NCBI GenBank assembly: GCA_026419785.1
Contig: JAODTK010002621.1
Coordinates: 299,744-363,743 of the forward strand
Reading direction: 5' to 3'
DNA from: Sclerodactyla briareus
Lineage: Eukaryota; Echinodermata; Holothuroidea; Dendrochirotida; Sclerodactylidae
Length of the DNA: 64,000 bases
Below the pieces are notes generated by a model that worked only from the letters and a program-made list of their open reading frames with translations, ran no database searches and had not been told where the DNA came from. This document shows, piece after piece, positions 15,761 to 58,289 of the stretch (positions within the stretch are counted from its first letter, which is position 1; each line of letters begins with the position of its first letter). A program made the translations under genes and the position numbers.

Positions 15761-16185
15761 CAGCCACTAGGGGCGGTTGGAAGGGCCAGACCCCCCAACT
15801 TTTAGTGGGAGGTGGGGTGGAGGGTGCGAAGGGTGAAATCCCTTTCCCTGGGCTCTCCCTCATTTTGCGGGATTTTGCGGTCTCAAAAACCCATATGATA
15901 GGCATCATTCATTCTTCTGACATGACCCCAGTTTTAGGGGACTGGAGTACATAATAAACTCACAATGCTCAGGAAGTGCAGTTTCCGGCCATCGGGGAGG
16001 TTCGAGGTTTGTAACAAACCCCAAATTTCATGTACGATCCGCGCCAACAAATGGTGGCGCTCCGCTTAGCTAGAACACACAACAATTCACAAAGATTGGT
16101 ACGCTTAGATGTAACCAACAAACAATCATCAAAAGATTGGTCTGTATACCCCCCCCCCTAAATTTGTATGCTTCCGCCACCACTG
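15761..16185 (-). mobile_element. hAT-like non-autonomous element, conserved-motif family copy (a)
   Basis: The right end, read on the minus strand, begins CAGTGGTGGCGGAAGC, which resembles the CAG-GGCG termini of the related element at 43303. Further in come the family's GC-rich near-palindrome (16036-16071) and its second conserved block (GATGGCCGGAAACTGCACTT, minus strand, about 15967-15997). The region aligns by eye with 27926-28018 on the opposite strand. The left end at 15761 (CAGCCACTAGGGGCGG) is a guess, and no target duplication is visible. There is no coding capacity. Confidence 0.5.
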
Positions 16186-16604
16186 AATGCACTCAGTTTG
16201 TTTGCATTCAATTCAGTACGTGCCTGCATACACTGCTAATATTTATTTCACCCACAATGACCAACTCCCGATAAGGATTGACTCATGAGTTCTATCACTA
16301 GGCCTTTAGCTATACCACCCAGACATATGATTGAGATGTTATACAAACATGAGTCGGTCATTGCCATGTAAAAGATATATAGTATGGATGTGCGTGAAAA
16401 ACCAAAGAAAGAAATATACAGGATATGTGGCATAACACCCACAAAGAGAGCGATAAAATCATGATTTTTCGGCTCGTCCTAGACGTTTTCCCCGCAGAAA
16501 GCATGTTGTGGTGCACTGTGGGTTAGTGTTGATGCATGCCGGATACTTCAGGGGGCATTTTTTGTGTTGCATGTATGGAAAGCTTTTTTATTATCTTCCT
16601 CATT
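16186..16604. other. no gene recognised
   Basis: Nothing recognisable between the copy (a) element and the short palindromic element at 16605. Confidence 0.5.
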
Positions 16605-16661
16605 CAGGGCTGGAATTAACTGGAGGCCACCAAGGCCCTCATAAGCTTAATTCCAGCCCTG
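16605..16661. mobile_element. 57-bp palindromic miniature element with perfect 15-bp inverted ends
   Basis: CAGGGCTGGAATTAA at the left end is matched perfectly by its reverse complement TTAATTCCAGCCCTG at the right end. The 27-base middle is itself weakly palindromic (GAGGCC/GGCCCTC). The hexamer CTCATT directly abuts both ends (16599-16604 and 16662-16667), as expected for a target duplication. CAGGG termini fit a hAT-type terminal repeat, though a standard hAT duplication is 8 bp. It could be an extreme internal-deletion derivative or footprint. Confidence 0.65.
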
Positions 16662-17567
16662 CTCATTCTCTATGCATATTCTCTCAAAATTGAGTATATT
16701 GTCCCCTATAGTTTTTCAACATCTTTATCATGACAAATCTGAGCTGAAATGTGCCTATTTTTTCAAAAGAAAAACCATTTTAAATCTGCTGGAATTCCTA
16801 TTTGGCCTTCTATAGATTGCCTACTTTGCCCCCTGGGCTAGACCACAATTGCATTGCGAGAGGTCTATTTCAGTTTGGCGAAAGGCTATTGACTGCTACA
16901 CAAGTGGCAATTATTGCATATGTATACCTAGCGCCTATACAGGGTCTCATGGAGCTTTTAATTTGTCTATAGCCCACCATCAATCTCCTCGCTATTGCAT
17001 TTAAAGTTGTTGGGGGGGGTCCAAAGGTGTTAAGGATTTGTATCTGACCTGTTTTGTATTGTCTATATTGGGAGCCCAGCCAACACGTTACGACGGCCTG
17101 TGAGGCCAGGGGAGGGGATAAGATCAGATTTCAATTACAGAAGTGATCCCAAATCTTACGTATCATTACAATACGACCGAAACCTACACTACAGTAACCC
17201 CTAACCCTCAATAACCCTAACCCCATTCTCATACATCCAGGTACACTTGGATTGGCCATAGCCACAACAACACCTAGACTCAGATGTAACACTAGGCCTA
17301 CGCTGAGACCGTACAAGTCAATGGTAGGGAACACGACTGCTGAACTGCGCTGGCATTTCTCTTCTAAAAAATAAAAATTGACAGCTTAGTTAGCCTAACA
17401 TTAGTTGGTTTCTACTAGAAAATACACTTGTTCAGAACATCGTGACTTGAAAAACTTACAAATACTCGTAGGCCTATTGTTTACATTTGACCCTATGGTT
17501 GTTGTTGTGGTGGTTCTTGTTATTGTTCAAATACTCCAATGCGCCCACAAAAGGCATTCGATGGAGG
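16662..17567. other. no gene recognised; degenerate telomere-like words
   Basis: No coding sequence is recognised. On the plus strand about 17190-17225 holds several CCCTAA words (CCCCTAACCCT, AACCCTAACCCC), too short and degenerate to be called an interstitial telomere array. Confidence 0.45.
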
Positions 17568-18060
17568 TTAGCCCGTGTGCAGAGAAACTATTGATGCGGC
17601 CCAGTTGGAACTTGCCCTCTTGAAGGTGTTTTCATTATCCAATTGGGCTATGTCTGGGGGGAGCCTGTTCCACCCTTGCAATGGTTCTTGGACGTATGAA
17701 GTTGCCAGCAGCACCAACATTGCTGGAAATATTCTTGAACGACTGCGTGTTAGTTCTAGTACGACTCGTGTGTGGAACAAACTCTTTTGAGCAGGACTAC
17801 AAGGTTTGTCATGGATGATTTTTTATGAGCAGATGAAATCAGTAATATTACGTCTACATTCAAGCGAGGGCCAACCCAAAGTTGACAAAATGTCAGTAAG
17901 ACTTTCAGAGCGCTGGTGACAGAACGGCCAGTTACAAACCTGCCATGCCTAGATTGGATATTCCTCCAAGTTTTCTTTTGCCAGTATAGTTTGTGGAGAC
18001 CAAATTTGGGAGGCATACTCCAACTGGGGACGGCCATAAATAAGATAGGGCCTTTTTCCT
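17568..18060 (-). pseudogene. 5'-truncated LINE: C-terminal tail of an RT polyprotein
   Basis: The minus strand encodes, in broken frames, the C-terminal domain that follows the reverse transcriptase in CR1/Jockey-group LINEs. From the N-terminal side these are ASQIWSPQTI (about 17985-18020), ARFVTG-like GRFVTGRSVTS and SVTDILSTLGWPSLECRRN (about 17860-17940), KIIHDKPC near 17810, then TRSRSRIFPA, WNRLPPDIAQLDNENTFKRA (about 17610-17750). The order and spacing match the usual tail motifs 'GW-x-SL-x-x-RR', 'H-S-R-x-F' and 'WN-x-LP'. No RT core is seen upstream, so the copy is 5'-truncated, as is normal for LINE insertions. It is frameshifted and inactive. Confidence 0.78.
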
Positions 18061-19064
18061 TAATTTGGGCAGAGGACAGTTATGCACTTCCGAGAAAGAA
18101 ATTCAGGACCTTAGGCTAGGCCTATTAGCCCTTTTCATCCATAAAAATTTTTTACTAACTATCAGGAGACCAGGAAAGCTGTAGATCCAGGTTACAACAC
18201 CAAGTAACTGAAGATTTCACAGACATCAAGACTATGTCCTAGGCAATTTAAGGCAAATCTACAAGGTTTACTTTTCAAAGTTGTAGTGAGAACATAGGCC
18301 TAGCATGATGTACAGGCGGTGGCCTATACATCATGCAATCATGCCCCTATGAATTGAGTTCTGCACATTGCCTATTCTTCAAGTACTGTTACGTCTCGTA
18401 CGAAGGTGGCACAGATGTTAGGTTACACTATAGGTATAGGGTTCAGTGAAGTTAAAACGTCACACAAAATGAACCCCATATACTTGGTGTAAATAACACT
18501 GTGCCATCGTTAAGCTCCGTAGCATTCACACAGGCCTAGCCATATATAATGTTGGACCCGGACTACGTTAGGCTGACTACGGACAGTAACCCGAGTAGCG
18601 TAAACCTGAATGAAAGAGCGACAACACATTACTAAGCCTAAAACGCGATTACTCGAGCCGTCGACGGTCAATTTCGATTAGCAGCTTTCAAATTGCGTAC
18701 AACTATCACGTTGTCTAGTTATATCAAGGGAAAATTACAATCGAAAGGTTTCTTCACTCATCATTTTCATTTCGCAGGCAAGCGCAAGTAGCGGTTGGTG
18801 TTTTGATCATGATGTGCGCTGTTGACGCCAACGTTGTTCGCTCTGTTTTATATATTTCACACTAATAGCCATAGGACGATATATTTCTGTGTTAAGCACG
18901 AGCCGGAGAATGAGACCACCGTTTTTATATTGACTGGATAGCTCTTCTACTGCAAAAATCAATTAGTGCAATAGCGCCCTCCTATCAGAAAGCTTCAGCC
19001 GCTTCAATACACAACAACGGCGTAATTGCAGTTTTATGCAGGCCGATACGACTAATCCTTAAAG
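18061..19064. other. no gene recognised
   Basis: No gene or repeat is recognised. Several AGGCCTA words occur (near 18117, 18297 and 18534). Confidence 0.5.
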
Positions 19065-19347
19065 CTTGGTCACAAATGCTTCTACGAACGGTTATGCGAA
19101 CGGTCCCCGAACGATTTTAAGAATTTCGTGGTCCATTTCTCACGGCGTTCTTGAAGCCTTCTTAAGAAATGCAACTGTTCGTAGACCGGGATTGATGGTA
19201 ATAGCCAGGTCGATGATCATGTCCAAGTGTTTTAGTTTTGTTTTTTCAATGCTTGAACACATTAAGGAATGACCTAACCGTACGGCAGCTGTACGAAGCC
19301 GTAAGACTTAGCATTCCATCGTTCGTACGAAGCTTTGTTGACCGTAG
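19065..19347. mobile_element. MITE-like element with about 30-bp imperfect inverted ends
   Basis: The left end TTGGTCACAAATGCTTCTAC continues with GAACGGTTATGC. The right end, read on the opposite strand, is CGGTCAACAAAGCTTCGTAC followed by GAACGATGGAATGC. The shared core is GGTCA-ACAAA-GCTTC-TACGAACG. Further ACGAACG/CGTTCG words lie just inside both ends. About 283 bp long with no coding capacity. I could not define a target duplication. Confidence 0.55.
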
Positions 19348-20697
19348 TGTAGAAGGTGGAGGAACGACCAATTTGTTACCTACAATGAGTACAATCCCCT
19401 CCCCCACTTCCCCCCTAGGGTGCGGCCCAATGAGAAGGGCCGAGGGGATAGACTCAGCAGTTTTCAACACGACGAGCTGCAGTGAAGAAAGAATGAGCAT
19501 ACTGTCGGCATTATAGCAGAAAATTATAAGAGGGCCCTCACAAGAACTGGGAGGTCCACACAAATGTGATAACCCCCCCCCCCCATGTTCCGGCATGCAT
19601 CTATGAATGAAATGTGGGTAAAAATGAAGTATATAATCTATAACAAAAAGCCTATCGATCTGTCTAATCAGATTGCTCAAATTTCAGGTGAGGAGGCCGA
19701 ACTGCTAAAAAAAATTCGCGCTGCGCGCGCTTTTTTCTATGTTTGCCGTCCGTTACATCTGTGATATAGTAGGCCATACACAGTAGCTTCGTCAGCAATA
19801 ATGCTTCTTCTCCTTTACGGCAGCAACAAGTTACGGGTTGAACATATGGAAAGAAAGGCCACAAAAGGAATGGTGATGGGACCCAAACCCCCCCCCCCCC
19901 GCCAATGCTGGGATCCAACGGCCATTCCTAACACTGAAATACCCATGACTAGGTTTATTTCACTTCTAATCCAAACGGTTGACAGCTGGGTGCTATTCTA
20001 AAAATATCCCTGCAACACTGGAAATGTTATTATGGTTTTGGGGTGTGCGAATAATGTTGCATTTTTGCCTTGGATAATGTGGCCTACAGTGGTTATGACC
20101 AACAGTAGGAGCATCAAAGTCACCGTAAGTCAAATGGATATAATTTGATGTTTTTGTTTGTTTTTTGTGTTTAACGAGGTTCCACAAGGCCATTTCGCGG
20201 GGTTATACACGGTCGGCGGTTTACCCGTCTGACACATGTCTTTTAGTGGATGAAAGCAATATGCTGAACTTGACCACTCGGACAGGGGAATCGTGCACAT
20301 TTAGTATGCTGGTCACGTGACTAACGTGTCACTAACATATTAGGGAGCGGTTTGGTAGGGGGCAAAACACCTGTGAGAGACATTGTAAAATTGGAGGGGG
20401 GGAAAAGTTTTTTCGGAAACAAACTGAAAAATGAAAACATTTGCTGACTGGCTCGATCGTCTCTTACTCAAAGGTCCGAAAAATGCACACATCTGCCATG
20501 ACAGTGATGTTCAAGCAAATTTCCAAGATGCCAACCTCCAACCAAACTGGAAGGGTCCTCTATGGGCCCAGGCGAAATACCTCTGAAAATTAGAGGTATG
20601 GTAGGAATGAAGGCGACGATAGAGAATTGGAAGAATAAACATTGATCAGTTTTTGGGGAATTTATTGGATATTCGTGGTGTTTGCTCACTGTCATAG
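19348..20697. other. no gene recognised; C homopolymers
   Basis: No coding sequence is recognised. C-runs of about 13 and 14 lie near 19567 and 19888. A small perfect hairpin (ATACCTCT/AGAGGTAT) lies at 20578-20600. Confidence 0.5.
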
Positions 20698-21102
20698 GGC
20701 CAGAGAAGTGCCGATTCCGGCAATCTGGTGGGTCTGTTAAAACGGAACTTTTCGTCAATGCTACGCGCCAACCTAGGGTGGCGCCGACTAAAAAATAGTG
20801 CTAACCACATCTGCTCCAATTTTAATACAAATCGCCGTCCGTGATATTGACGACGATGTCACCGTTTAAGACAGTGCGGTGTACATGATTCGAAATTACG
20901 GACAAGTTGGGGAAACGTAAGCCCATGGTCTGATAGACAATGTAACTAACTTCAATATGGAGGGCTAATCTTGAATCACAAAAAACTTAAATTCCAAAAT
21001 TTTTCCCTAACGATACGCGCCACCGAATGGTGCTCTCCGCTTAGATGCTTGGGTTCCTACCCGTCATCGTCCCCCGAAGCGCGAACAAATCTACGCCACT
21101 AG
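20698..21102 (-). mobile_element. hAT-like family remnants, motif copies (b) and (c)
   Basis: Two diverged instances of the family's GC-rich near-palindrome occur here on the minus strand, at about 20761-20790 and 21011-21048. Copy (b) has the second conserved block next to it (minus strand CCAGATTGCCGGAATC, about 20698-20732). Copy (c) ends near 21102 with a CTAGTGGCGTAG terminus, read on the minus strand, like the family's other 5' ends. The two could be one element with an internal duplication or two insertions. No target duplications are visible. Confidence 0.45.
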
Positions 21103-21399
21103 CAGCCGATCACGGCCACGATCAGACAATATTTCGAGCCTTGATAAACACCCCAAGTATCCTGGTCGCACGCACTTGGTGTTTAGGGAAGTATGGTGTG
21201 GATTGGCGTCGGCCTTGCCCTGCCGCAACTGCTAAGCCACATTTCAACCCCATGGCCCTAGCCAGTCATAAGAGACGATAGTGGCTTGCAGGTGTGTAAC
21301 GGTATACTGAAGATATTTAAACAAGGGTTTGGGTGATTTTTTTAAATCATGATTGAATCAGTTATCTAAATCGAAAGTAAATCGCATTGAATCAATAGT

Positions 21400-24240
21400 T
21401 TTGTTTGTTTAGTTTAGTGAATAAGGGCGGAAGGAACATAATCCCTCATAAACTACCCCTAAGCCCAAATCCCAGAAAAAGAAAATGAAACCAAAACTCG
21501 AACTAAATAAGACCGCACCTTGGATTCCTGAAAAATCAATCAAGACTGTCTTGAACGCATTAACACTCTTAGAGCAAACCCCATTTTTCAGAAGACAATC
21601 CCTACATTGACCACTCTCTGCGAGAATAATTTTACGAATGTCCATTTGCAGCGCTTTGCCACGAAGCTGTGACACAGTGGCATCTATTTGCAGTACCATT
21701 GAAAATTCAAAAGAAGTAGTGGAAGGCAAGGCCATCGAGTCCATGCCCATTTTGAAAACCTGAATCAATCCCCCCACATCGCCTCACTCCGGAGTGTAGA
21801 CCGCGACGGCTTAATCTTTCCTCGTAAGATAAATTTTACAGACAGTGAATCATTCTAGTTGCCCTACCTGAACTTCTCAATTACCTGCTTTCTTTTCAAA
21901 GTAGGGATCCACACGTGTAACGACTACTCAGGTTCGTCTCATCCATTGTGCTTAAACAGCCTGACAGCATATCCATTATCAATGAAACTGAAGTGACGTC
22001 CTAATCAAGCCAAGAATCCAATTACCTAACCTCGTCTACAGCTTCGGCACCTGCTTGGAAGGTTTCAAGAAGAATCACAACAAACCCCAAGATCTTTTCT
22101 GAAATCACCTCCTGAATATTTGGGCCATTTAACTTGGAGGGAGCGTTGCGATTGTGAAACCAACATGCATAACTTGCACTTGCATCGACATTGAAGAACA
22201 TTTGCAGTCGGAATACCATTTGGGAATTATATCCGATCTCTTCGAACAATTGCAGCATCATTATTCGAACCGCCCTCCCGATACAACTTAGTATCGCCTG
22301 CGAACTTCTTAACGCCTTGAATCACATGAACCTTCAAGATCGTCAGAAACAGCAGCGGCAAGAACCATCCCTGCTGGGAACACACTAGTGGACCTTTTGC
22401 CAGAAGACGACCGCCCTTAATCCAACTCGTTGTTCCCTTTATGAGACACTTCAGATCCCTGAGGACATTCCCTCATACCAAAGCTCCTCCACAGCAAGAG
22501 ACGCCTCATAGATAACCTTGTCAAAAGCTTCTGAAAGTCCGGAAATGATATCAACAGCATTGCCGTTTGTCAACAGAACATGTAACCGCTTCCATAAATC
22601 CAAGAGATTAGTCCAAACACAACGATTCTTTCCTAAACCCATGCTGCAGAATCTCTAATCAACTAGCTCATTGAATATCACCATATGATCCCAGACTGAT
22701 TGATTCCATTAGCTTGCAGACACACAATAAGACGACTGGCCTGTAATTACAAGAGACCGTTTACCTTCTTTGAAATAGGAGAAACATTTTTGCTCTCCTA
22801 CCATCATCGGAACAATCGTCTTGTAAGTCTTTTAAAATATAGCTCAGTGAACAACAACTCGTCGGCAAAGGCTTTAGTAAGATAGGATAAACTCCTTCAG
22901 GACCCGGAGCTTGATCACTTGAGCTTCCTGCAGTTTCTCCTTCCCTAACCAGACGAACACACCATATTACCATACTCCGCGGAGAAAACCCGACAACTAG
23001 GTCACCAAAATTATCCAAGTTCTCATGAGTAAAAAACAGACCGATAAGTGGAGTAATTTGAATGAACCTTAGGCCCTCTCCTGGCTATCCGCGATTGTAC
23101 TACCCAGATTTGAATCTATCACGGAGCCATTCTGTCCTGACTTCGGCTTCCCCCCCAATAAGAAGAAAAGTTCACGAGGATTCCCTTGTTATAGAGGCAG
23201 TCTGCCTCCGAAATCAAGTTAGCACCATAACCTAACCGCTGGGGCAAACTTTTGCTGAACTTTGCAATGCTCTGATCAGAGGCAGGGACGGACCCAGAAG
23301 CACGATAAACTCGCCATAAATGTCGCTTATGTTTGATGGCCAAACTTCCCTTTTTCATCCAAGAGGCCTCTTGTTCTTACTGCGACATTTCCTCCAAGGA
23401 ACGTAAACTTTCAAAACCTCGTTAACCTTTTCATGAAACATTCCAAAGCAACAGCATTCGTACTTTCAACATTTATCGCCATCGAACTTTGCTAAAAAAC
23501 CGGAAATGCATCTCCACTTTCGGCCTTCGCGAAATCAAGGAATCACGCTCTACACTCTGTGTGATATTCAGCAACAAAGACACATTAAGCTAAATATCGT
23601 GATCACTTGCACGACTTACCAAGCTCTCTCCATTATCTACAACTCTGGATTCACTGCCTCAAAACTAAATCCAAATATTAAGCTTTCTTGTAGGAAACGT
23701 GTACAATGCCTTAGAAGGAAACAAACTCCTGCGGCATTGAAAAAGCCAAATCCATAACTGCCACTAGTACCATTAGATCCAAGAATTATCTGGATAATTG
23801 AAATCAACCATCACCCATAATATTGTACTCGTCCCAGAACTTCGAAAAGCATGTCGGAAGAAAAGCGTTTGTTGTCTTCATAGCTATTTTGTAACGGTAC
23901 CACGCCAACTCATAACGACTTGGCATACCAGAGAGTTAGCGGCATTTCACACCAACCGACGGTTGGACCAAAAAACTTACACCAATCATGCCTTCTCAAA
24001 CTATTCAAGTCGACCTCACTACACAAACAAGGACACCACCGACCAAGCACGAGATTACTATCCTAACCTCGCTAGACAAACAAAACCAGGAAGGTGAATT
24101 CGCTGTGGAAATATCACTGTACAACCAAACGACTCTGTAATCCAATGACGTCAGCTTGGCTTTCCGGAACTAAATCTGCAACTCATCAAACTGTTCCTGA
24201 TACTTTAAACCCTTAGCACAGAAAAACAGCTGGCTAACAT
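21400..24240 (-). pseudogene. near-complete decayed LINE ORF2: endonuclease, reverse transcriptase and C-terminal domain (copy B)
   Basis: A CR1/L2-like non-LTR retrotransposon relic on the minus strand, with domains in order. The endonuclease start (KYQEQFDELQ) is near 24185-24220 and the GDFN motif near 23775-23815 reads VDFNYPDNSWI. The linker (KHKRHLWRVYRASGS) is near 23280-23340. The RT region reads QAPGPEGVYPILLK at about 22880-22925, YILKDLQDDCSDDGRRAKMFLLF at about 22770-22840, then GNAVDIISGLSEAFDKVIYEASL at about 22500-22570. The catalytic box is FAGDTKLYR at about 22280-22310, where family members have FADD, so one catalytic Asp is replaced by Gly. NVDASAS...GPNIQEVISEKILGFVV lies at about 22060-22170. 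The tail has GLIQVFKM...DSM near 21735-21775 and SVNAFKTVLIDF near 21520-21560. Many frameshifts and stops make it inactive. It is the same family as copy A at 2830-4120. Confidence 0.87.
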
Positions 24241-27853: not shown

Positions 27854-28080
27854 CAGGGGTCACCAGAACTTTTCAAACTGGGGGCACAAGGTGGCACAGA
27901 CATTTGGTGGGGGCACAAGACTACCATCTAGCGGAGCGCACCATAGGTTGGCGCGGAAGCGCACAAGATTTTTTTTAGTTGCGCAAGCCCCAGATGGCCG
28001 GAAATGACCTTCCCGAGCGTTTCAGGTGGCATTGTGTACCCAAGCTTCAAATCGGGGCATTTGGTGATAACCAAATCTGC
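27854..28080 (+). mobile_element. hAT-like family fragment, motif copy (d)
   Basis: It starts at a CAGGGGTCACCAG terminus (27854). It then carries the GC-rich near-palindrome (27926-27962) and the second block CCCAGATGGCCGGAAATGAC (about 27988-28018). It aligns by eye with copy (a) at 15960-16071 on the opposite strand. The right boundary is not defined, and a longer element begins at 28189. Confidence 0.5.
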
Positions 28081-28188
28081 TGGCGGTTTTGAAAATTGAA
28101 CATTTTGGTCAGACCTCGGTCTTATCGCTGCTCCAGACTTTTGCCAGAATCAGAATATTCAATAACTTGTGCTCGACACTACTGTCAC

Positions 28189-29173
28189 CAGTGCGCTCGG
28201 AAGCGTTCCGCAAAGTGAGGGGAGGGGGACACATCGAAGCAAATGACCATCTGAGGCGGAGCGCCACGATCGGTGGCGCGGAGCCTACCAAGAAAAATTC
28301 AGATTTTCTTACCATCCAGATCGACGGAAACGGCACTTGCCAGGCTACCATAGCACCATCTACATGTGTTGATTTGAGTAAAGACCAGACAAAAAGTTTG
28401 TCATGTGCATACTAAGATGATTTACCGAGTACGCACATCATGTATTTTTCATTACTTTTGCTACTAATGGCTGAGTTTGCGTGGGATCCAGGGGTCTACG
28501 AACGGTCTTGTGGGATCGAGGGGAAAAGCCATAGGCGTCGGGACCACTCCAATTTGAGAGAAGGAAGGTGGCACCGAATTTTACGAGGCAGGTCATTGAA
28601 ACTACCGGAGCGCGCGAAGCGCCGAAAAAAAAAATGCAATTTTCCGGGCCCATTTTATCGAAATGGACTGCAAAAATTCAGGCATTTTTTAAATTGTATC
28701 TTCCTTCCAATTTTCCACGAATTTACGTCTGAATCTGTCATCTCAGAAAAATTGGGGGGGGGGCGTCTGCCCGCAAGGCTTCTGAAATTCATCGAGTGAC
28801 GAAATGATCGACGCATACAATCGTTGCGCGCGAAACACTGAAATATAAGCACTTTTGCTATTCGATTAAAAATCGAGAACTCGGTAGGAAGCATGGGTAA
28901 TCCTTACAATTCGGCCCTAGTCGGGTCCAAGATCTTCACTGGGGTACGCAACCTGGGTCCCGCACCTGGAATTATGACTAAGACAATTTCCAACGGGATT
29001 ATGTTTTGGTTAGACAAAAAATTGAACTCAGCTTAGAGTGATACAAATTTCGGCATTGTGCCATATTTTTTATTACGGTCCGGAAAAGAGCGGGGACAAA
29101 GATATGATCCCCCCCCCATTTTGTAAAGTGGGGGGGACATGTTCCCCCGTCCCCCACCTGTGTGACGCCCATG
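28189..29173 (+). mobile_element. hAT-like non-autonomous element, motif copy (e), same subfamily as 43303-44357
   Basis: The whole block aligns collinearly with the element at 43303-44357. Shared landmarks are the two conserved motifs (28248-28286 and 28312-28346), GAGCGCGCGAAGCGCCGAAAA (28609-28628 region), the TTTTGGTTAGACAAAA stretch near 29005-29020, a G/C-run pair, and the terminal GACGCCCATG (29164-29173). The left end reads CAGTGCGCTCGGAAGCG. The flanking octamers (28181-28188, 29174-29181) do not match, so the target duplication has decayed or the copy was rearranged. There is no transposase-like frame. Confidence 0.72.
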
Positions 29174-32025
29174 TGCGAGGCGAATTTGGCACAAATTACT
29201 GCTTTCTGTGATATTTTTCGTTTGGTTGTGCCATATCTATTCAAACGGGTAGTCGAAAATACTGACTACAGAATACTTTTTTCGAAAATCACAAAGCTCA
29301 TTTGGGGGGGGGGCACACGGTGGGGCACAGTTTCGAGAGGGGCGCGTTCCCCCCCCCCCCTGGCCCCCTTGGCGACCGCCACTGATACCATGTACCCCTG
29401 ACAAAAGACGATACCCCGCAAACATGACTATGAATTCTCTGTACTGATGGAAACTTGACTAAGTTAAGTTCCAGAAAAAAGGGCAATGAGCCAGTTCGTA
29501 GTTTAAGTGCGCATGCTCCCCACAGAATAGTGCGGGGAAATAGACGAGATTCGCGTCCGTTCCCCCCATAGCCAATATCGTGAGGCTTTATTTCAACTGT
29601 CTCCACTCACCACTATTTGAAAACTTAACCAATTCATCCCATGTTTTCGGATGTTATTGTTGGTAAGTATTGGGGGAAATCTGTTTAAAAAGGTCTGCGA
29701 TCGGACAGGATTCGTAGTTAGTTTTCAGGAGGGGAGTTTTCGAAAGATCGTTCGCACACTGTACGTGCAACGCGACGTAGAACTGCGGGTCATTCCCGTA
29801 TGACACAATCTCGTAATCATCTCATAAATGTAACTCCAGAACTGGCTTATTGTGTTTGATCTGGCTCCTCGGCTTTTAGAATGCTCGGAAAACGTTGGAA
29901 AAAGGGGCCTCGCCTCGATGGACAGGGGAACTCGGGCCTCTCGTGTTCTCTTGTGGTCTATCCCTGGCAGTACCTTGGCGCAAGGCGTTCGAGTACACCC
30001 CCACTCCACCCCCATAACAAATCCGCCCGGCAGAGAGAACCACATTATCTTTCTAAGCACCCGATGTCCATAGCCCCATCAGTAACGAATGCTAAATACT
30101 GATCTTGCAGCACAACGTGTTGAACCACGGCCTATTACTAACTATAGGTAGTTCAACATCGAAATCATGTGTGAAGAAATTATAATTATCCAGGAACAAA
30201 CTGAGGAAGGTCGCTCTTATCCGTCATACTGGTGGGGACCTCTGAACATGCGTTTCTTCTGACCCATGTCGACTGAACCTATATTTCGGTTGCAAGTGCT
30301 GCTAAGTATCAGGCCATATAAAGACGGAATGGCCTCGCCATCTCTGCCTTTGTTAGGCCTATATGCCAGGTGCCTACAGTCCAGTACTTACTGCCCCCCT
30401 CCCCACCGCCCCGATCTTGAAGTATGGTTATGAGCCTGAATTGTGCTCAAGATGTAATTGACATGTCAGGCATTCAACTATAATGTAAGTGTTAAGGAAC
30501 AAGTGTCCAAAGTCTTCTTAAAGCCTCCTGAAAAACGTACTCGGTATACACTTCTGATGACGTACACAGGCAACGGGGGAGATGCTTGGGGGCTCCAGAC
30601 TACCCGGAAGCCTGTCAGCCCCCTACCCCCCCCCCAAAAAAAAAAACCGTCCAAGGAATGTATTACTTGATATGCTGATACTCTGTCTAAAAGACAAAAA
30701 TTTACTGCCTTCCGCAGCTGGCGAAAGGCCATTCCGAGGCTTCTCCGGTGGTCTATGAGGATCCCATTCTCTAGAAAAGAAAAACAATCGTAGTGAAATT
30801 GCTTGAGCCGCGTCCAGACTCGATATGAACCCTGCACTTTTTCATCCAGTCCCCATTTTTCGTGTTTGCGAGTGAAGCGTTGACAATCATTTTTGCGTGA
30901 ACATGGTCGGCAGGCACCTTCCAAAACCATATAGGCTGATACGGTTTTGCCGCACCAGTCAAGAACTCTCTAGTTTGTTCTATTGATAAACGGTTTGGGA
31001 GCCATGGGATTACGGTTGCTTCAGGCATACCAATACCAAAATATTAGGGAAAAACAATCAATTATGTTGAATAATATTGAGAATGGTTTTTGGGAGCAGA
31101 TCTGATCAGAAAAATTATCATCAACTTCATATTGTTCAACTTACATGGCAAAATGATTGAGCATTGGGCAGTAAAAGTCATGGTGTTTTGTTAAATAATC
31201 CAGGACTTTATCTGACCAACGAGGACATTTGGATCTGACCATTAGAAACAAAGAGAGGAATCATTCAGCTACCCACATGAAATGCTACATAAATAACAAA
31301 TGAGCCCACATAGTTGCATTGAAGAGTACTCAACCGTTTTTTTTACAATATTTTCAGACTTTGACCCATGCTGACCTCATGTGATCTTTGCTCCCAGCAT
31401 AATAGCGATTGCCTTCTGTGTATCTGTAACTAACTCACCTGACAAATATAGCCCCCCTCTTCACACTGTGTTTAACTAGTGGGTATGTTCACAAGACAAA
31501 TGAACTTGACCTTGTTGGAACCTACATTACCTTCAACCTGTCATACAACCTAGGCCCTCTCATAGAGGCGTCGATCCCGGGGGGATGGGGGAGCCCTATG
31601 TAACCACCCCCCCCCAATATTGAGCCAAGTCCTTTCTGAGGAGGAGACGTTTGAGGTCGGCTGTGAGTGCCTACCGTGGTATGGTCCGCCGACGTCAGGG
31701 CGCTGTTCCCCGGTGTGAAAAATGTTGCTGACATTAATGCTGGTGTGCCCCGTTACAAGCTGTGGATTGTGAGCGGAGCTTAGCAGCACTCCGACGTCTA
31801 AAAACGGTGGCTGCGAAACACGATGACGCAGCTGCCTCTAAACTCTTGCGCAGTTTGCACGTTCACAGGTCTAGTTGATGATTGATATCATTCTCCTTGC
31901 AAGGGAGTTCGCCCCTCGATCCGAGAACGTAAGAATAGTTCGGCGTCAGTATCCGTGAATGACTGCTACAATGAACTACTTGGGACAAATTACGCCTGAA
32001 TGTTCCACGTAAAGTAGGCAGGACT
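29174..32025. other. no gene recognised; hAT-like end near 29384
   Basis: G/C-runs at 29300-29360 lead into a terminus that reads CAGTGGCGGTCGCCAAGG on the minus strand from 29384. The rest is unassigned. Minus-strand frames of 150 and 85 residues overlap at 30478-31028. They show no family motif and I do not call them genes. Confidence 0.4.
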
Positions 32026-32262: not shown

Positions 32263-33370
32263 GTCGGAACGATGAAGATTTTTGTTTGTTATATACCACC
32301 TCCTATACCACCTACGCATCTATCACCTCTATATAGCTTGACGTCGTCATAGGCAATGCCTGTTATGTGCACTTGACGAACTTCGATCTTCCGGATCACA
32401 TTGGGAATTGAAATTACCTCGTGACCCTTTGTCATCCATGGAACTGCTCCCATATCCGGTAAGCCTACTATCGAAAAGAAAATGGTTGTGCGTAAACGGC
32501 TGAAACCGCGTGGAGCCGACCTTCATTATCCTCAACCTACATAGGACTTGAAACCAACGGCGTCTCAGTCCATATAAAACATATCTGAAATTGGCATCAG
32601 GCGTTAGGCACTGTTACTGACCCGGTAAATTCCTTCCACCGATATTTAGATATCGGGGGTAACGGCTAACGTGTCTCTGCTTCATTTGATAATCAATATT
32701 TCACCAGGCAATCATGATAACTTTTAATTATGTTTATTCCATCCTCTCCAATTATCCGATGTGAGTTTCAACTCAGGGTTTACAGGCTGATATTTTCAAA
32801 GATCACTCGTTCTATTCACAGCTTCATTGTCTATTCTTTCACTGAAACTATTGTTTGGTTATCTAACATCACCCAGTATGTTCAAGAGTCATTGGGACGA
32901 GGGCGACGTTCCCCATGAGATGATTGAGGTAAACATGGTTACAAATTGCTGATACTATTGAACGGCTGCCCGTGTTGACCTCCACAGACGACAGTGCCCC
33001 GCGATGGGGGAGGGGTATAAGGGCAGTGTTGATACTACCCGATCCAGCCTTTCGTTCATTAGATTATCTGCTCACCGTGACTGTCACTGATAAGTTGTGT
33101 TCCCGTCAATAGTTGAGCACACAGCATAGTGTCGGACTTACATTCGAAGTCATCGGTTGACGCTTTGACGAGACGCGCTTGTTTTTCACTACATCATTTC
33201 AACGGCACGCTCATCAGAAAGTGTCAACGCTGCCCCTATATGAGGCTAATAACAAACGACCCCGAAGATGGAATGGTCACCATTTTGAGATTTCGGTTTA
33301 ATTTTTGTAAGCCAATGGTTGAGTATACACAAGAAAAACCTTCCCTCCACGACCGCCGTTTAGACATGCT

Positions 33371-33512
33371 AGTGCCCCTCTCCTGGCCATCTGAGGGGGT
33401 CTCAGGCCAACAATTTTCACCTACGCTCCGCCGCCAACCAATGGTGGCGTCTCCGCTTAGATAGTCTACAACATCATCCCCCCCCAATCTTCAACGGAAA
33501 TCGACGCCTATG
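33371..33512 (-). mobile_element. 5'-end fragment of the hAT-like family, motif copy (f)
   Basis: Read on the minus strand it starts CATAGGCGTCGATTTCC (33512). A G-run follows, then CTAAGCGGAGACGCCACCAT and the rest of the near-palindrome (33421-33462), then the second block (CAGATGGCCAGGAGAGG, about 33371-33397). The element may extend to 32026, where the matching 3' terminus lies. Confidence 0.55.
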
Positions 33513-35575: not shown

Positions 35576-35689
35576 TTCGCGCTCCGTATCCTTGACACGG
35601 GAAATGATGGAAATTCCGTTTTCAGGAATTAGGGCACTAAAAGGCTCTTCCAGTAGCATAGTGTGTTTGGCTATTCCAGCGAGTCGCTT

Positions 35690-36510: not shown

Positions 36511-36699
36511 TTCATCTGCAGCAATCTTGAGGGTTGATTTGGTAATGTTGGTGATTTCGACCGTGTAGATATAACCGATGTGCGATTGCCCCCTCTATTT
36601 TAGGAACGGCTTCTCCATATCTCTGCTTCAGCAGGCTTACATGTCTATGGATACCCCAACTCCATAACCGAAGACAATATAGCGCGCTAAAGAGATAAC

Positions 36700-37040: not shown

Positions 37041-39476
37041 TACCAGTACTCTTTAATGGCCGTAGGAAATCCTAGACTCTATGCAGACCTCTCTTGTAAT
37101 TGGGGCTGGTATACTCACGTTTAGGCTAGTAATATTTAGTGTCGCTCGACCAAAGACAGCCCAATTACTCTCGGATTCAACCGGCTGCTCTTTAGAAAGT
37201 GTTGCACAAAAACAAGTTGCAAGTCAGGCCACTCGAACAGCACACTGGGAGTCATGCACGTAGGCGGTAGTTTCGGTAACGGTATGAGGTGAAAACGAGC
37301 AGCGCAGAACTTACTGTGCCTGCACTGCTCGACGTCCGAAGGCTCAATGAGGTGGTTTCGATTGTCTTCTCCTGTAGAGTGACGTGACGTGTGACTTCAC
37401 GGTATAACGAATACAATATAGCGCGCCTAAAGAAGTCTCTGCCACAGACATGTATACGTAGAACTAACATCACCCATACTGTCACTGTGCAACATTTTGC
37501 AGCCAATTGAACGCCGCGGGGATCCTGGGAAATGCAGCACCCAAAAAGAACCGTTCGCGCAAAGGAGCATATAGTAAACCAACGGTTTTCGGTGGCGGTG
37601 CAGTGATACGCCGATTTTGCGGCTAAATCTTCAATATTGAATGCAGTATGGTGCAATATACGAAATCATTTCTGTAAAATTTTATTTTCTAGATTTTGAG
37701 AATATTTCCTTCGCAGTTGTGCTGTTAGATTTTTCAGGATTTAGACATCTGTTGTTTCTACCTCCGTCCACACTGATAATGAAAACATAGTCGTACCGTA
37801 CATACCCTACATCTAGGCATAGCGTTAGGCCTACGTATCCTTGCGATGTCTGGCACTCTGTGAAGAAACGTACTAGGCATGCATACTCAAGTTACTCAAC
37901 ACTCTAGGTGAATGATATGACCTGACCAAACTCCTTTTGCATATAGGTTAGCCCAATTACCCAGCACAGACCCATATTCAAGCCAGTGGAATCTCACTAA
38001 GGCCTTGTAGATATTATTGCCCACATGGGGCTGATTGCCATAGTTCTAGCAGAGCAAAGTTGCATAGACCATTTGGTATGAACTGCAGATTTCCTCAGCC
38101 AATAAGTATTGCGGTGGCAAAACGAAGATTTTCCAAGCTATTCCTAGTCTGCTTCCATGGGTGAGGATTGCGCCCAAAAGGACGGCCTTAAACAAAACTA
38201 CAAAACGAAAACTTTGAGGCCGCAAGCGCGCTGCGCCTACACTAGTACTGGCGTGGGTGCCGGAAAGGAGGTCACTTCAGAGAACTGAAACACCATTGTC
38301 ACTAGATCTACTCTCATAGCATCCCCCCACCTCCCCTCCCCCCATTGTCCATGAATTTGCTAATGAGTACATTTTAAAAAACCCACAGGAGGCAAATTAA
38401 ATGAATGCGGGACAGAGAAAATTACCGGCGGGCCAAAATGCTGTTGTGGCATGCAGTGCAGTATGCCATCAATGAGGTTTATTGTCAGGCAATCAAGGTG
38501 CTGCTGACTCTGGCCCTCCATCGGGCAATTGCATGGTGCTTTGAGGACCTTCTGTCTTTATACTAACTTTTGGGGGTCTATTTGGAGGTTTTCAGGATCC
38601 ATGCAGTCCTTTGTTCTTACATCTGGAGGTCTAAGAAGTGTCTTTTAGCACACCAATCCTTCACAACCGTGCCAGCATATCCCTGATTTTTTTTTTCTCA
38701 ATGGTATAACTTGCCGAGCGAAAAAAGGATCAATCCTATCCGCCAAGGTCCGTCCACAAGGGTGCAGACCTGATGCTGCACCTAATTGTCAGCAGCGAAT
38801 CTAACTCAGAGGGTAAATCATTCGAAAGTGAATTGAGGAACATTTAGCAATTGATTGTAATTCAGTAAGAATATTGTGGCTGCACAACGGGGAACATGTG
38901 AGTCAACATGCTGTTAACAAAACCATAGGTACATGCAAGGGTCATAATGATGATGCTATATATTTTTAATTTCATATCTTTGGTCAGGTTATTTTTAAGG
39001 ATCAAATTAGCTGGGTGAGCATTATCTCAGTGGGACAGCCCAACTGTACAACATCATGAGGTTGCCCTTGACTTCGAGTCTAGTAAAACTAATGCTTGTT
39101 TTTCATATGACGCGCAATGTCTGCCTAGGTAGTGCCAAACAGTCTGAATGAAATGTCTAAACAAACAAGGCTGCAAGGGGAGTATCGGCTATAACATCCA
39201 AAAAATCCTCAAACATTGATCTATCAAAACTGGAGCAGAGTGTGTTACAGCATGTTGGCTGTTAAGGCTGGCAACTGTTTCAAGCCTTCTTTGTTAGGAC
39301 TCTTCTTGCTGGCTCTCTTACTCCTTTGCTCAGTCATTAAACTGTCTATTTATCCTTACAACTTGTCTGACTATGGAACTTGTGTGAGCAGTGCGGGGAT
39401 CAAAGGCCTCTAGAAAACACTAAACAAACAGGAATGAAACCTGCTTTTCAACATTTTAGTGATCCTTTTCATATTA

Positions 39477-39905
39477 CCGTATTCATTCCGCTAAGCGCCC
39501 ATGGCGGCTTGCAAAGTTTCAGGAGGGGCGCTGCACGAGAGTATATTATTTTTTTGATATTCCCGAGCATTCCAGCGTGTATTATACTGTACTGACGTAT
39601 AGTCGAATACACAGCATATACTAGTTCGGCCAATGCACGATCGTTGTGAGTTTATTATGTGGAGACGTGTGTTTGTAATGGGGGGGGGGGAGGTGGAAGC
39701 ACTGTATGTTGGAATAGCAAGACATTGTTGCCTCAACCTGTGCAATATTTTGTATGTGTTTCATGTACACAGTGTTTTCAATTTTGAGGCAATAGTTGTT
39801 GCACTTCTGCAGCCCATGGCGGTGTTATGGGTACGTCAATCTGCATTGCAAAAAAGTTGGTAGGCGTCTTACTGGGAGACTGGTCGCTCAGCGGAATGAA
39901 TACGG
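39477..39905. mobile_element. 429-bp MITE, TA target duplication, empty site present in paralogous arm
   Basis: The inverted ends begin CCGTATTCATTCCGCT at both termini and match at about 23 of 25 positions (AAGCGCCCA versus GAGCGACCA follow). TA flanks both sides (39475-39476, 39906-39907). The right arm of the inverted duplication has the uninterrupted sequence with one TA at 42597-42598 (ACCCTAATATGAG), so the insertion and its 2-bp duplication are directly visible. The word GCCCATGGCGG occurs near the left end and again at 39812. TA duplication suggests a Tc1/mariner-type or other TA-targeting superfamily. There is no transposase. Confidence 0.9.
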
Positions 39906-40542
39906 TAGGTTGATTGTAGATATAGATAACACCACTTTCCTCTGATTATAAAATTCAGAAATGCAAATATAATTATACACTGTTGTGATTTCTGGTACAG
40001 TGTAATTTTAACAGCTTTCTCAGAGATGAGATATAAATAAAATATACATGTACCATAATGCATGTTATACATACGTAAAAGATGATAGGATTAGCATAGT
40101 GAGTGGTTACAGTGCGACTATAATAAGCCACACTTTTTCACCACTGCATTGGACATTTCAACGCATGAATTATACCGTGGGGGAATTACAATGGGGAGAA
40201 ATTGATCTACATATTTCTAGATGTTAAGTCTTGATCAAAACAAAAATATGGCTAAATTCAGCAGCACCCGCAAACATGTGTGGCCTAGATGTATTCGAAG
40301 AACCCTTTTGCTGCAGTTTCCTCAAGTGCAATTAACATATGAAATATGGCTGATACCAGTGCCTGGAGGCATGAGCATATTCCTTGAACACATTTCCTGT
40401 TGTACTCTACATACTGACACAAGATCATTCAAAGGTTTGATCAGTCCACCCTAATTATCCATAAATTAGCCTAATTAGGCTATACCTAGGCCTACTGTAT
40501 TATTTTTTAAACAGCCCGCTATCATTCTCAACAGATAGGCCT

Positions 40543-40727
40543 CTAACTTACCAAGCGAAAACTCAACCCCGCATTTCCTGTACCAGTGTTGTTTTCTGCA
40601 TGTTTGCTGAGCCACCCAGGCCATCTTACTGTTTCGAGTACTGCAACGTTTTCCCAGTCCCCGGTGTCGATTATCTGTTTTCCACCTGAGTTCGTCGTAC
40701 GCGTAGCACATTCAGGCAGTTGCACAT
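40543..40727 (-). other. possible duplicated exon with conserved splice donor
   Basis: On the minus strand an open stretch reads ...LPECATRTTNSGGKQIIDTGDWENVAVLETVRWPG... and ends at a CGCTTG|GTAAGT donor-like site (about 40543-40550). In the right arm the matching stretch (41104-41272) keeps the frame for about 30 residues (TTNSGGK...TGDWEN...ET-R), then breaks at a TGA, and ends at CGCCG|GTAAGC. The paired donors suggest a first coding exon of a duplicated gene. No ATG is in this frame and I do not recognise the protein. If it is a gene, the right copy is broken. Confidence 0.3.
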
Positions 40728-40730
40728 ACG

Positions 40731-41097
40731 TCTATTGCTAGTCACAGAGATGGATAGAGTGAGGGTTGGCTCTGTTTTTGCATCCCAATTGAACGCGAGG
40801 TGCATGGTGGGAAATGAACCCAATAAAGATCGAAGCCTAGGCAGCAATTACAATTGACTATGTACGCTAGGCAACAACGGCGGGTCAATTTTAATCATCG
40901 TTCTTTCGGACAACTCGTAGTATAACAATCTTCCGCTTGAAAAATATGGAGAAATAACCCGAAGAATACAATAGTAAGCTTTTGGACGGCAAAATTTCGG
41001 ATTGAATTTATTTCAAATGACGAAAACCAGTTGCGAAAGATGGGCACTACATACGTGTACGGCAATGAGTCCTGTACGTAGAGGCCTCACTAGCCAA
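40731..41097. promoter_or_regulatory. shared core between the inverted arms, promoter-like, ZNF143/Staf-type motif
   Basis: This 0.37 kb core is not itself palindromic. It lies between the two divergently oriented arms, like a bidirectional promoter. On the minus strand it contains TTTCCCACCATGCACCTCGC (about 40786-40813), which resembles the ZNF143/Staf site (consensus around CCCA-x-x-ATGC-x-x-CGCG), followed by GTTCAATTGGG. A third copy of the whole core is present at 49030-49345. Promoter function is inferred. Confidence 0.45.
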
Positions 41098-44000
41098 GGC
41101 TATGTGCACTGCCTGACTGTGCTACGCTTACTACGAACTCAGGTGGTAAAAAGAAATCGGCAACCGGTGACTGGGAAAACTTTGGCATTATCGAAACAGC
41201 ACGATGACTAGCAACTCAGCCAAACTGCAGAAACAATCTGTGACCTGGTTACAAGAAATGCGGGGTTCGTTTTCGCCGGTAAGCTTATAGTTACAAGTGA
41301 CCAAGCTAGAGAGCCTATCTGTGACATGTATAGCGGCCTTTTACAAAATAATACATAGCCCGATAGGTATCAGCCTGATTAGGATAATTTGATGATAATT
41401 CAGGGTTGGACTGATCAAACCTTCAACTGATGTTGTGTCAGCTGAGTATATTACAACAGAGCATGTTCAAGAATATGCTCGCCTCCACACAAGACTCCTC
41501 ATGCGCGCGGCACTTGCATCAGCCATATTTCACTGCCACTCGTTAACTGTACTTGAGGAGACTGCCAAGGTTCTTTGATGACCTCTATTAACACATTTTT
41601 TGACCTGTGCTGCTTGATTGTTAACCATATTTTTGTTCGATCGAGACACTGACATCATGTACATAAAATCAAATGCATCCACCTGGCTGATCATCAACAG
41701 ACACAAATCGACAGGAATCAAAGGTGGGAAAACTCTAATGATGCTGTTCAACATTAGTGATCACAAGGTCAATAGCCTGTTGAACAGATTCTTGCTTGAA
41801 TGTTTAATGTCTTTCGAGCCAGACCCTTTTTTTTTACCTCATGCATAATATACCATACCTACTCGGAAGTTGTTATATTTTATTTTCTACGATTTATACT
41901 TTTTTATTAATTATTTGAAATATATTTGAAACTTAGGAATCTTGGTATGAGGATTGATATGTTGATATCAATATTTTCTCAAGTAATCATTGATTACCTG
42001 AGGACCCTTAATGTGTAGCCCATGTATGTGCCATACTTGTATAGTATGGTTGATATAGGCTATAAGCCTACCACACCCTTTTGGTTTTTGTTCGAGGAAA
42101 TGACTATTTCCCCTTTTGCATATTCATAACTATTAAGAAAATGGCTTTTTTTGCTTTCAGGAAATGATTCACCCAAAGGACCTGCAATTTATTAAGAGGA
42201 ATTTGCTGATTAAAAAAAAACCAAGATTAATTATTTTCAAACCTCTACTTGTCCCATTTTTAACATCTATTATGCAAATTAATAGTACTCGATTTAACCT
42301 CTAATTTCTTTCTCCGCATAGTAATTTCCCCACTGTAAATATTCAATGCAGTGAACTGTCCACCATATTGGTCTGGTATTAGTGTTGTTTTTTATAGTCA
42401 CTGTACCGCTCACTATGCAATCTATTTCTCCAATTAGTATAACATACCTGTTCTAGGTATATTTTTGTTTATCTCATCATCAATAAATATGTTAAAATAC
42501 CTGTACCATAATCACAACAGTGTATAATTATCATTTGCTTTCCTGTATTATTTCATAATCCAAGTGAAGTGTTGTTATCTAATACTACAATCACCCTAAT
42601 ATGAGAGGATCACTCCCAATGCGCAAGCAGTCTTCCTGTTTTGGAGTGTTTTCTAGCGGCCTTTGACTCCCAAGCACTGCTCACAAAGTTCCTTAGGTTT
42701 GCAGTGACTGATGCTTCATAGTTCAGAAACAAGTTTATAAGAGGTAAATTAACATTTTACTACTGACTGATCAAGGAGTAAATAGAAAGGCAGCACGAAG
42801 AGTCCTAACGAGAAGTGCTTTTTTTTTTTGGTGCAAACGTTACAGCCTTTACAACAACATGCTTACCCACTCTGCCTCCCGTTTTGATTAGATCAATGTT
42901 GGTGATTTTTTGCATGTTATGCCTATACTGCGGGCTGGCCCCCCTTGCAGCCTTGTTCAGACATTTACATTCAGACTGATTATATCACTTTATAGGCAGA
43001 CAAGCGCGACATGAACATGCATTTGTTTCATCTCACTCGAGTCTATGGCACCTATGATGGTTTTGTACAGTGCCTTCACCACTGAGATAATGCCCACCAG
43101 CTAATTAGTCCTTAACATAACCTGACCAAAGAAATTAAATTAAATATATGGCATCATCTTTTACATGACCCTTGCCTGTACACTATAAGAAATATATGGT
43201 TTCTTTTTACCAGATGTGACTCACAATTTTTGTTGTTGTCCACCAATAAACTTACTGAATACATAATTGCTCAATCTTCCCCCATTTACTTTTGAATGAT
43301 TGCAGGGGCGTCGGAGCGTTTTCGAAAAAGTGGAGGGAACACAATCGAAATGCAATACCATCTCCGCGGAGCGCCACTATTAGTTTGCGCGGAGGGCACT
43401 AATAAAATTGCAGATTTTCCTAACTCAGATCTACGGAAACAACCCTTGCCAAGCTCATAGCACACATTACAATGTTTATTTGAGTAAAAGACCAAAAAGT
43501 CGTCATTGTGCATATTAAAGGATTTACCGAGTATCACATCAAATGTTTTTTTTTTATCTTATTACCTTTTTTACCTCTGGCTCGCTTTGTTTGCGTTGGA
43601 TCTAGGGTGTCTACCGAACGTTCTCTGGTGAGATCGAAGGGAAAGCAATAGGCGTATCGGACCACTCAAATTTTGGGGAAGAAAATTGTACCCAATCTTA
43701 CAAGTCGGTCATTGGAGCACTACCCGGCGCGCGTGGAGCGGCGAAAAAATCAGGTTTTCTCTGGCATTTTTTCGAAATACCTGCGAAAAATCAGGCATTT
43801 TTCCACTTTGCTTTTTCCTTCCCTTGTTTCCACGAATTTTCACTCGAATTTTCCCATCTCAGAAGAATGGGGGGGGGGGGTGCAAGTATGCCCCAAGGCC
43901 TCTGCATTAAGCGGGTGAACGAAATGCATTTCGAAGCATTTACATCGCATATTTGCCTACCAAGCCTGGAAGAAACACGCCATGCGCGCGAACACTTGAA

Positions 44001-45675: not shown

Positions 45676-45709
45676 GCAGTGAGGCCTATTACGGGGGGCA
45701 CACCACATA

Positions 45710-58280: not shown

Positions 58281-58289
58281 GGGCAATTC

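Follow-up and report, generated by a model that had tools for sequence, protein, structure and literature searches.

A bipartite sequence module lies about 50–120 nt inside one end of numerous transposable elements in the genome of the holothurian Sclerodactyla briareus, and its position and orientation are fixed with respect to one clade of hAT transposases, with which it is associated. Its two conserved blocks probably constitute a single bipartite and one-sided recognition module, putatively bound by the transposase, of a large and old hAT family. The analysis started from a 64,000 nt stretch of contig JAODTK010002621.1 (the window), which contains seven loci with the module, designated a to g.

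Architecture of the module in the window

The seven GC-rich near-palindromes (block 1) indicated by a previous sequence-only reading of the window were confirmed at their positions, and the second block (block 2), claimed for six of them, was found in all but locus c, where it is absent or very decayed (Table 1). The consensus 20-mer produced three matches in the window with up to three mismatches, and the block 2 20-mer produced one, vs. none in 100 shuffles in both cases. Using leave-one-out profiles, where each locus was sought on both strands of the window with a profile trained without it, the full core was recovered in 7/7 loci (E-values from 7.9e-16 to 3.9e-7; best match elsewhere in the window, 0.3–6). 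Block 1 alone was also recovered in the seven loci (E 4e-8 to 0.06; best elsewhere, 0.8–5.7), and block 2 plus its surroundings in four of them (a, b, d, and e; E 0.001–0.004), while in f and g block 2 was detectable solely within the full core. Profiles of the upstream flank recovered none of the seven loci in the window at E < 1 (a and d appeared at E 18 and 6), and those of the far-downstream flank recovered only b (E 4e-6); this last match is an artefact, because the matched c–b stretch was in the training set as the flank of c.

The consensus of the module is ATCTAAGCGGAGCGCCACCATTGGTTGGCGCGGAGCGT, followed by around 26 A/T-rich nt and by CCCAGATGGCCGGAAACGGCACTTCC, spanning roughly 100 nt in total. 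Block 1 does contain an inverted repeat of approximately 6–8 bp (CGCCA-CC / GG-T-TGGCG), but it is not one long palindrome; by eye, a GCGGAGCG-like word occurs twice, in direct orientation, around this repeat in 6/7 loci. The spacers between both blocks are of 25, 26, 26, 27, and 28 nt, and of 37 nt in a. Also by eye, locus a shows a local tandem duplication of around 40 nt immediately outside block 1. The opposite end (200 nt) of the five window elements whose second end was placed or proposed contained no match to block 1.

Table 1. Coordinates of the elements and of their conserved blocks in the window (LOO, recovered with leave-one-out profiles; k-mer, matched by a consensus 20-mer).
Feature	Position	Strand	Ends alike (of 16)	Remarks
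Element a (candidate ends)	15765..16185	-	10	421 bp; no recognisable duplication
a, block 1	16036..16071	-		k-mer; LOO
a, block 2	15967..15997	-		LOO
Element b (candidate ends)	20208..20843	-	13	636 bp; ends CACGGACGGCGATTTG / CACGGTCGGCGGTTTA; no recognisable duplication
b, block 1	20761..20790	-		LOO
b, block 2	20699..20730	-		LOO
c, block 1	21011..21048	-		LOO; left end, C(T)AGTGGCGTAGATTT, at 21101; no right end found
Element d (candidate ends)	27854..29384	+	7	CAGGGGTCACC... to ...CGACCGCCACTG; flanks GTACCTTG / ATACCATG match in 6/8; right end is the best candidate; e nested within
d, block 1	27926..27962	+		LOO
d, block 2	27988..28018	+		k-mer (block 2); LOO
Element e	28189..29173	+	6	985 bp; without matching duplication
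e, block 1	28248..28286	+		k-mer; LOO
e, block 2	28313..28345	+		LOO
f, block 1	33421..33462	-		LOO; left end, CATAGGCGTCGATTT, at 33512; no right end found
f, block 2	33363..33397	-		Weak alone; LOO with full core
Element g	43303..44357	+	11	Complete 1,055-bp non-coding hAT-type element; ends CAGGGGCGTC / CATGGGCGTC; perfect 8-bp duplication AATGATTG on either side
g, block 1	43358..43397	+		k-mer; LOO
g, block 2	43422..43454	+		LOO with full core, not alone

The blocks are more conserved between elements than their surroundings

Identity among the window elements was not evenly distributed: it reached 0.79 in block 1 and 0.70 in block 2 (random, 0.53 for both), vs. 0.54 in the spacer (random, 0.49) and 0.57 in the 80 nt following the blocks (random, 0.56). 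The surroundings are therefore nearly unalignable, as first described, and the blocks stand out clearly from spacer and flanks. Elements e and g belong to the same subfamily, with 83% identity over 935 aligned columns, and within this pair blocks 1 and 2 were 0.75 and 0.76 identical, compared to 0.83 for the whole element. This shows that, in the sole pair compared, the blocks received no protection after insertion and decay like the rest of the element. Since block 1 is as similar between elements (0.79) as within this pair (0.75), the master sequences of block 1 were nearly invariant.

Short GC-rich conserved blocks are what the site of a host factor, such as an insulator or promoter protein, usually looks like, and parts of the blocks may resemble motifs of known animal factors, which counts in favor of a host site carried by the elements or adopted by the host. 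Nevertheless, the lack of protection in the e/g pair, together with the association of the module with a transposase clade and with a fixed position in the element, makes this explanation improbable.

The module is present in hundreds of copies across the genome

In the 319-Mb genome containing the window, 398 exact occurrences were counted for a 16-base stretch of block 1 and 827, with up to three mismatches, for the 35-base consensus (20 of them exact among the matches listed), with no occurrences of the respective controls (reversed for the 16-mer). The exact sequence CCGGAAA was found at 30–58 nt in 106/398 copies of the 16-mer (control, 0). Among 62 fetched copies, 39 contained block 2 with up to 6/20 mismatches (4/62 and 0/62 in control intervals) and 41 a hAT-like terminus 40–105 nt outside block 1 (8/62 in a control interval), so that most of the fetched copies share a terminus of this type. 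Only one of these 62 copies passed a strict end test (control, 0/229), as did g alone among the seven window loci, and copies were consequently sorted by groups. The sampled copies formed about ten groups, with a typical alignment spanning only around 60 bases, and the follow-up based on these groups added candidates only. Overall, the hundreds of copies and the diversity of groups in the sample support the early suggestion of many subfamilies of one large family.

Locus L093 contains a 991-bp copy with clean ends and a perfect 8-bp duplication (AGTGTTAC). In L093, a crossover within block 1 joined two subfamilies, with the upstream part 0.99 identical to one neighbour and the downstream part 0.99 identical to the other. 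Block 1 can then be used as a recombination junction, and some of the sharing could stem from recombination. It could even be argued that the module is simply what has survived best of one ancestral end, and that crossing-over between copies has spread or homogenised it. However, unselected relics would decay evenly, whereas the blocks differ from the spacer and from the 80 nt that follow, where similarity is near random; it is thus unlikely that common ancestry and recombination explain the conservation of the module.

The elements carrying the module are of the hAT type

The hallmarks of hAT elements are an 8-bp target-site duplication, short terminal inverted repeats (TIRs) starting with CA, typically CAGNGGCG, and a transposase whose C-terminal dimerisation region (PF05699) is encoded in the same element. 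The duplication is perfect in g and in the 991-bp copy of L093, of 7 nt (GAGGGTC) in L071 and of 6/8 in L077, and unrecognisable in most copies. Additionally, a paralogue of the g site, devoid of the insertion, is present in the other arm of a large inverted repeat that begins at position 37,922 of the window. Short TIRs are evident from the frequency of module-end termini given above, although only at one end in c and f. Finally, L071 and L077 each hold, in the same element, the module, a C-terminal piece of the transposase and both TIRs. The elements are therefore of the hAT type, as the sequence-only reading had proposed.

Ten open frames selected from the window, that of g (43606–44061) included, contained no Pfam domain at E up to 1, and neither did 20 frame segments at E up to 0.05, which comprised the six frames of 1–14999, 15001–29999, and 45001–59999, and two of the six of 29001–43998. 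Likewise, ARAGORN found no tRNA in the window.

The module is associated with one clade of hAT transposases

Examination of 30 PF05699 loci showed the module downstream and inverted in 6/8 loci of one clade (weak in L079), around 300–820 nt past the match to the C-terminal domain, and in 0/22 of the others. The association was significant in a Fisher test (p = 5e-5; 4e-4 without L079; 0.001 counting any arrangement, 6/8 vs. 2/22), for a clade that was delimited after the hits were seen and whose split from the other 22 loci had a support of 0.86. These results show that the module occupies a fixed place and orientation with respect to one transposase clade, and that the end bearing the module lies on the downstream side of the transposase gene. 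An insertion divides the module of L077, leaving the stronger half 1,222 nt away from the domain and only a weak piece (E 0.03) at 345 nt. Clade members L061 and L064, which fall in the L060/L078/L064/L061 branch, had no module within about 3 kb; conversely, L059 and L066, from other clades, and L082 contain the module in a different arrangement, and we provisionally take these as neighbouring insertions. As predicted, the module was also found in 3/3 further closely related copies; these were the next-best matches to L071, 61–88% identical and in part a re-sampling of one subfamily, so this test covers only the L071/L076/L077 branch. An intact hAT transposase has an RNase-H-like core and an N-terminal zinc finger; those in the fetched stretches were C-terminal pieces, often with stops, in which no N-terminal DNA-binding domain was seen, and a search of the PDB with the transposase piece retrieved three matches (best E 0.34), none of them hAT.

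A location some 300–820 nt beyond the match to the C-terminal domain could also be expected of a structured RNA or a 3′ RNA-processing signal, such as a transcript hairpin that would stabilise the RNA or help to form its 3′ end, and some copies (e and b) do fold into stems. On the other hand, for none of the six predicted pairs was pairing kept through a change in both partners, and the covariation term was unfavourable, as evaluated with seven sequences only; fold z-scores ranged from +0.2 to -3.0; and there was no Rfam match at the gathering threshold. Moreover, the module is retained in non-coding elements, which would need no mRNA. We thus give little credit to an RNA function, which the sequence-only reading had contemplated.

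A putative one-sided recognition site for the transposase

The link to a transposase clade at a fixed place, the lack of RNA covariation and the absence of constraint after insertion in the e/g pair favor a putative transposase site among the three functions originally considered for the blocks, and support the view that they matter for the element. We envisage that the N-terminal DNA-binding domain of the transposase would recognise the inverted repeat, the paired GCGGAGCG-like half-sites, or both; that recognition at one end would nucleate the transpososome; and that the second end would be captured with nothing more than its short TIR. Copies with internal deletions that keep the module and one TIR might then still be mobilisable, which would leave the module nearly constant in active lineages while the remainder of the element drifted.

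More tentatively, the module might be a shared address for the whole hAT clade, with a single transposase lineage cross-mobilising about ten barely alignable groups over a long time and the second end needing little beyond the TIR. If true, lasting selection would act on these elements mainly through the module.

In practice, a DNA profile unites in one family, tied to a transposase clade, hundreds of decayed and hard-to-align elements that would probably be divided or overlooked if annotated by overall similarity. It also offers a testable case of how the ends of an element are told apart by a hAT transposase, through a single strong site at only one of them, as structurally demonstrated for Hermes.

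Comparison with other genomes and with known systems

Exact-pattern scans of viral contigs retrieved three stretches: two that were discarded, with a chance 18-mer in a densely open stretch with 64–68% GC (L001) and with little match beyond the searched 16-mer (L002), and a third that scored 7 bits over its own 16-mer (L003). There were no matches in an exact-pattern scan of contigs from prokaryote genomes or in plasmids scanned for element g. A full-text search of the literature with three sequence strings of the motif returned no transposon paper by title, and topic searches nothing matching by title or by the start of the abstract.

Mar, a hAT MITE of the Buster group from Drosophila, is similarly non-coding, with TIR CAG(G/A)GGTAGGC and 8-bp duplications, and Buster relatives occur in sea urchin; however, the extract of this source describes one family, and no bipartite block common to subfamilies (PMC3517528). 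The transposase of Herves, from Anopheles gambiae, also binds a short subterminal motif (CG/AATTCAT) and treats its TIRs unequally, although this motif is of 8 bp, has another sequence and occurs at both ends, and the abstract mentions no sharing across diverged subfamilies (PMC3143072). A similar architecture is found in the house fly element Hermes, a hAT with strongly asymmetric ends and a quasi-palindromic subterminal site (STR1-STR2) in its left end, the only one where, according to the extract of the source, the BED domains bind a quasi-palindrome (PMC10368747). Nevertheless, Hermes contains many repeats of a short AAGT-type motif near both tips, and its palindrome is within the first 27 bp, whereas the module described here, known from DNA alone, is single, GC-rich and of unrelated sequence, and consists of two blocks placed 50–120 nt inside the end downstream of the transposase gene.

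Conservation of the module in the window

The seven near-palindromes (block 1) of the hAT-type elements a to g lie where the sequence-only reading had placed them, and they are far above chance level: a 20-mer of the block-1 consensus, with up to three mismatches, had three matches in the window and none in 100 shuffles. Leave-one-out profiles, trained without the tested locus and, for the sister pair e/g, also without the sister, recovered all seven loci in the window (E values from 7.9e-16 to 3.9e-7), and the best match outside these loci had an E value no better than 0.3. Profiles of block 1 only recovered seven of seven loci (E from 4e-8 to 0.06) and those of the downstream part four, while upstream flanks recovered none at E <1 in the window. 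Far-downstream flanks retrieved a single locus, b; this match is an artefact, as the matched DNA between c and b was in the training set as the flank of c. The second block, claimed for six of the seven loci, is indeed unrecognisable only in c, and the spacer between blocks measures 25–28 nt in five loci and 37 nt in a.

Both blocks are better kept than their flanks, as the following identities indicate.

Mean identity along the module for pairs of different elements, e/g excluded (n = 20 pairs, or 14 where c lacks block 2)
Segment	Mean identity	Random
Outermost 20 nt	0.64	0.51
From outermost 20 nt to block 1	0.49	0.44
Block 1	0.79	0.53
Spacer	0.54	0.49
Block 2	0.70	0.53
80 nt after block 2	0.57	0.56

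Between e and g, which belong to a single subfamily, identity was 0.75 in block 1, 0.76 in block 2, 0.81 after block 2 and 0.83 over the whole element. Block 1 is therefore no more different between subfamilies than within this pair: it was all but invariant in active elements and, once inserted, seems to decay at the pace of the remaining element. A site for a host factor is consequently less favoured than a transposase site, because the e/g pair reveals no post-insertion protection. An RNA signal is likewise less favoured: compensatory change was found in none of six predicted base pairs (seven sequences) and the module had no Rfam match.

Candidate ends were placed for a, b and d, and one end only was found for c and f; none of a, b, d, e and g had a block-1 match in the 200 nt searched at its opposite end. 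Element e, the sister of g, has no recognisable duplication and appears to be nested in d. Element g occupies one arm only of a large decayed inverted repeat (~37.9–45.2 kb, centre near 41 kb), whose arms are 78–89% alike in ungapped pieces and 71% in one gapped alignment; the flanks of g, once joined, align with the opposite arm, where the target is present once, without the element. Across the window, there are 15 occurrences of the 8-mer TAGGCCTA, and the observed/expected CpG ratio is 0.71.

Features of the window and of two genome loci (coordinates are window positions unless a locus is named)
Feature	Coordinates	Description
Locus a	15967-16071	37-nt spacing, about one extra helical turn over 25–28 (single case); apparent ~40-nt tandem duplication outside block 1
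A-rich tract	27246-27680	~430 bases with C's (AAAC-type array), directly upstream of element d
Element g	43303-44357	hAT-like ends, perfect duplication AATGATTG
Large inverted repeat, arms	37922-39318, 42784-45223	
Large inverted repeat, inner pairs	40414-40720, 41108-41441	
Other repeat, three copies	37496-37536, 40764-40823, 49247-49306	~80% alike pairwise
L093	G000:C1037:465100-469900	three successive module copies, ~1.07 kb apart
Element in L093		991 bp, AGTGTTAC on both sides, from strict end calling
hAT element in block 2 of L077	~280-1127, reverse strand	848 bp, CAGGGGCGTAGCGA-like ends, perfect CCGGAAAC duplication

Copies across the genome

In the window's own assembly (319,486,128 bases), the block-1 16-mer GGAGCGCCACCATTGG occurs 398 times and the 35-base consensus, with up to three mismatches, 827 times (20 exact among the 100 matches listed); neither reversed pattern occurs. 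An exact CCGGAAA lies 30–58 nt beyond the 16-mer in 106 of the 398 places (reversed, 0). From the first 100 places listed for the 16-mer we took 60 stretches holding 62 copies which, being picked by the exact 16-mer, do not gauge the conservation of block 1 itself. Block 2 (up to 6 of 20 mismatches, +30 to +80) was present in 39 of the 62, versus 4 and 0 in control intervals, and 41 had a hAT-like terminus between -105 and -40, versus 8 in the control, so such termini do accompany most of these copies. Duplications of 8 bp were borne out in part: they are perfect in g and in the 991-bp element of L093, which is the one copy of the 62 that passed strict end calling (control 0/229).

Together with the window loci (n = 69), these copies fell into ten linked groups (each with 2 to 14 members) plus 16 singletons, with within-group links mostly of hundreds of bases at about 67–85%, whereas alignments across the module (all reported, E up to 1e-5) had a median length of 62 bases, in agreement with the proposal of many subfamilies. 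The grouping is rough, since the neighbours d/e and b/c and the L093 chimera contribute links, and the largest group therefore merges at least two subfamilies. L083/L084 may be a segmental duplication. The middle module copy of L093 is chimeric: immediately before block 1 it matches one neighbour at 0.99 identity, and immediately after it the other neighbour, also at 0.99; the tandem duplication was thus probably made by crossover inside block 1.

Association with a transposase clade

From 38 genome matches to the hAT C-terminal dimerisation region (PF05699), 30 were taken with ~1.5 kb on each side, and eight contained the module (E<0.05). It is downstream of, and inverted relative to, the transposase in L060, L071, L076, L077, L078 and, weakly, L079 (E 0.0075), at 345–819 nt beyond the domain match; the 345-nt piece of L077 is weak (E 0.03), and the stronger half is at 1,222 nt because an insertion displaced it. 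The module is on the same strand as the transposase in L059 (downstream) and L066 (upstream). A tree of the 30 domain pieces separated L060, L078, L064, L061, L071, L076, L077 and L079 from the remaining 22 (support 0.86), the position of L079 within this clade being unsupported (0.30). The downstream inverted module occurs in 6/8 clade loci versus 0/22 others (Fisher p 5e-5; 5/8 versus 0/22, p 4e-4, without the weak L079 module), and the module in any arrangement in 6/8 versus 2/22 (p 0.001).

As the clade was named only after the module matches were known, we predicted that the loci ranking next in similarity to the L071 piece should hold the module at the same place. All three that were examined did (E 9e-24, 6e-18 and 3e-27), inverted and about 300–340 nt beyond the domain match; being 61–88% identical to L071, they sample one branch of the clade. 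L082, a locus found through the 16-mer, departs from the clade arrangement: its hAT piece is on the same strand, ~600 nt inside. The module was in none of the nine loci of a second hAT transposase clade (ISSATAERSFSVLRRLKTYLRNAMGQTRL-like; L052, L054, L055, L063, L065, L068, L072, L080 and L081). Both L071 (~1.36 kb) and L077 combine the module, a transposase C-terminal piece and both terminal inverted repeats; the flanks share GAGGGTC in L071 and 6 of 8 bases in L077.

Putative function and comparison with known systems

The retention of the module in gene-less elements, its link with the clade and its fixed place favour a transposase site over an RNA signal or a host site, and the clade transposase would bind it. 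Of the functions initially envisaged for the blocks, this one thus gains ground and a structured RNA and a host-factor site lose it. Searches of the open-access literature, by sequence strings and topics, showed no description of the module among the papers listed.

The two terminal inverted repeats of Herves are treated unequally (PMC3143072). In Hermes, the left end is occupied by three BED domains, two of which sit on a quasi-palindrome, and the right end by none (PMC10368747). Block 1 combines an inverted repeat with a pair of GCGGAGCG-like words spaced by 22–25 nt, as read by eye in six of the seven loci, and is followed at a near-fixed distance by a second block, at one end of the element only; the module thus looks like a DNA-side counterpart of the Hermes left end.
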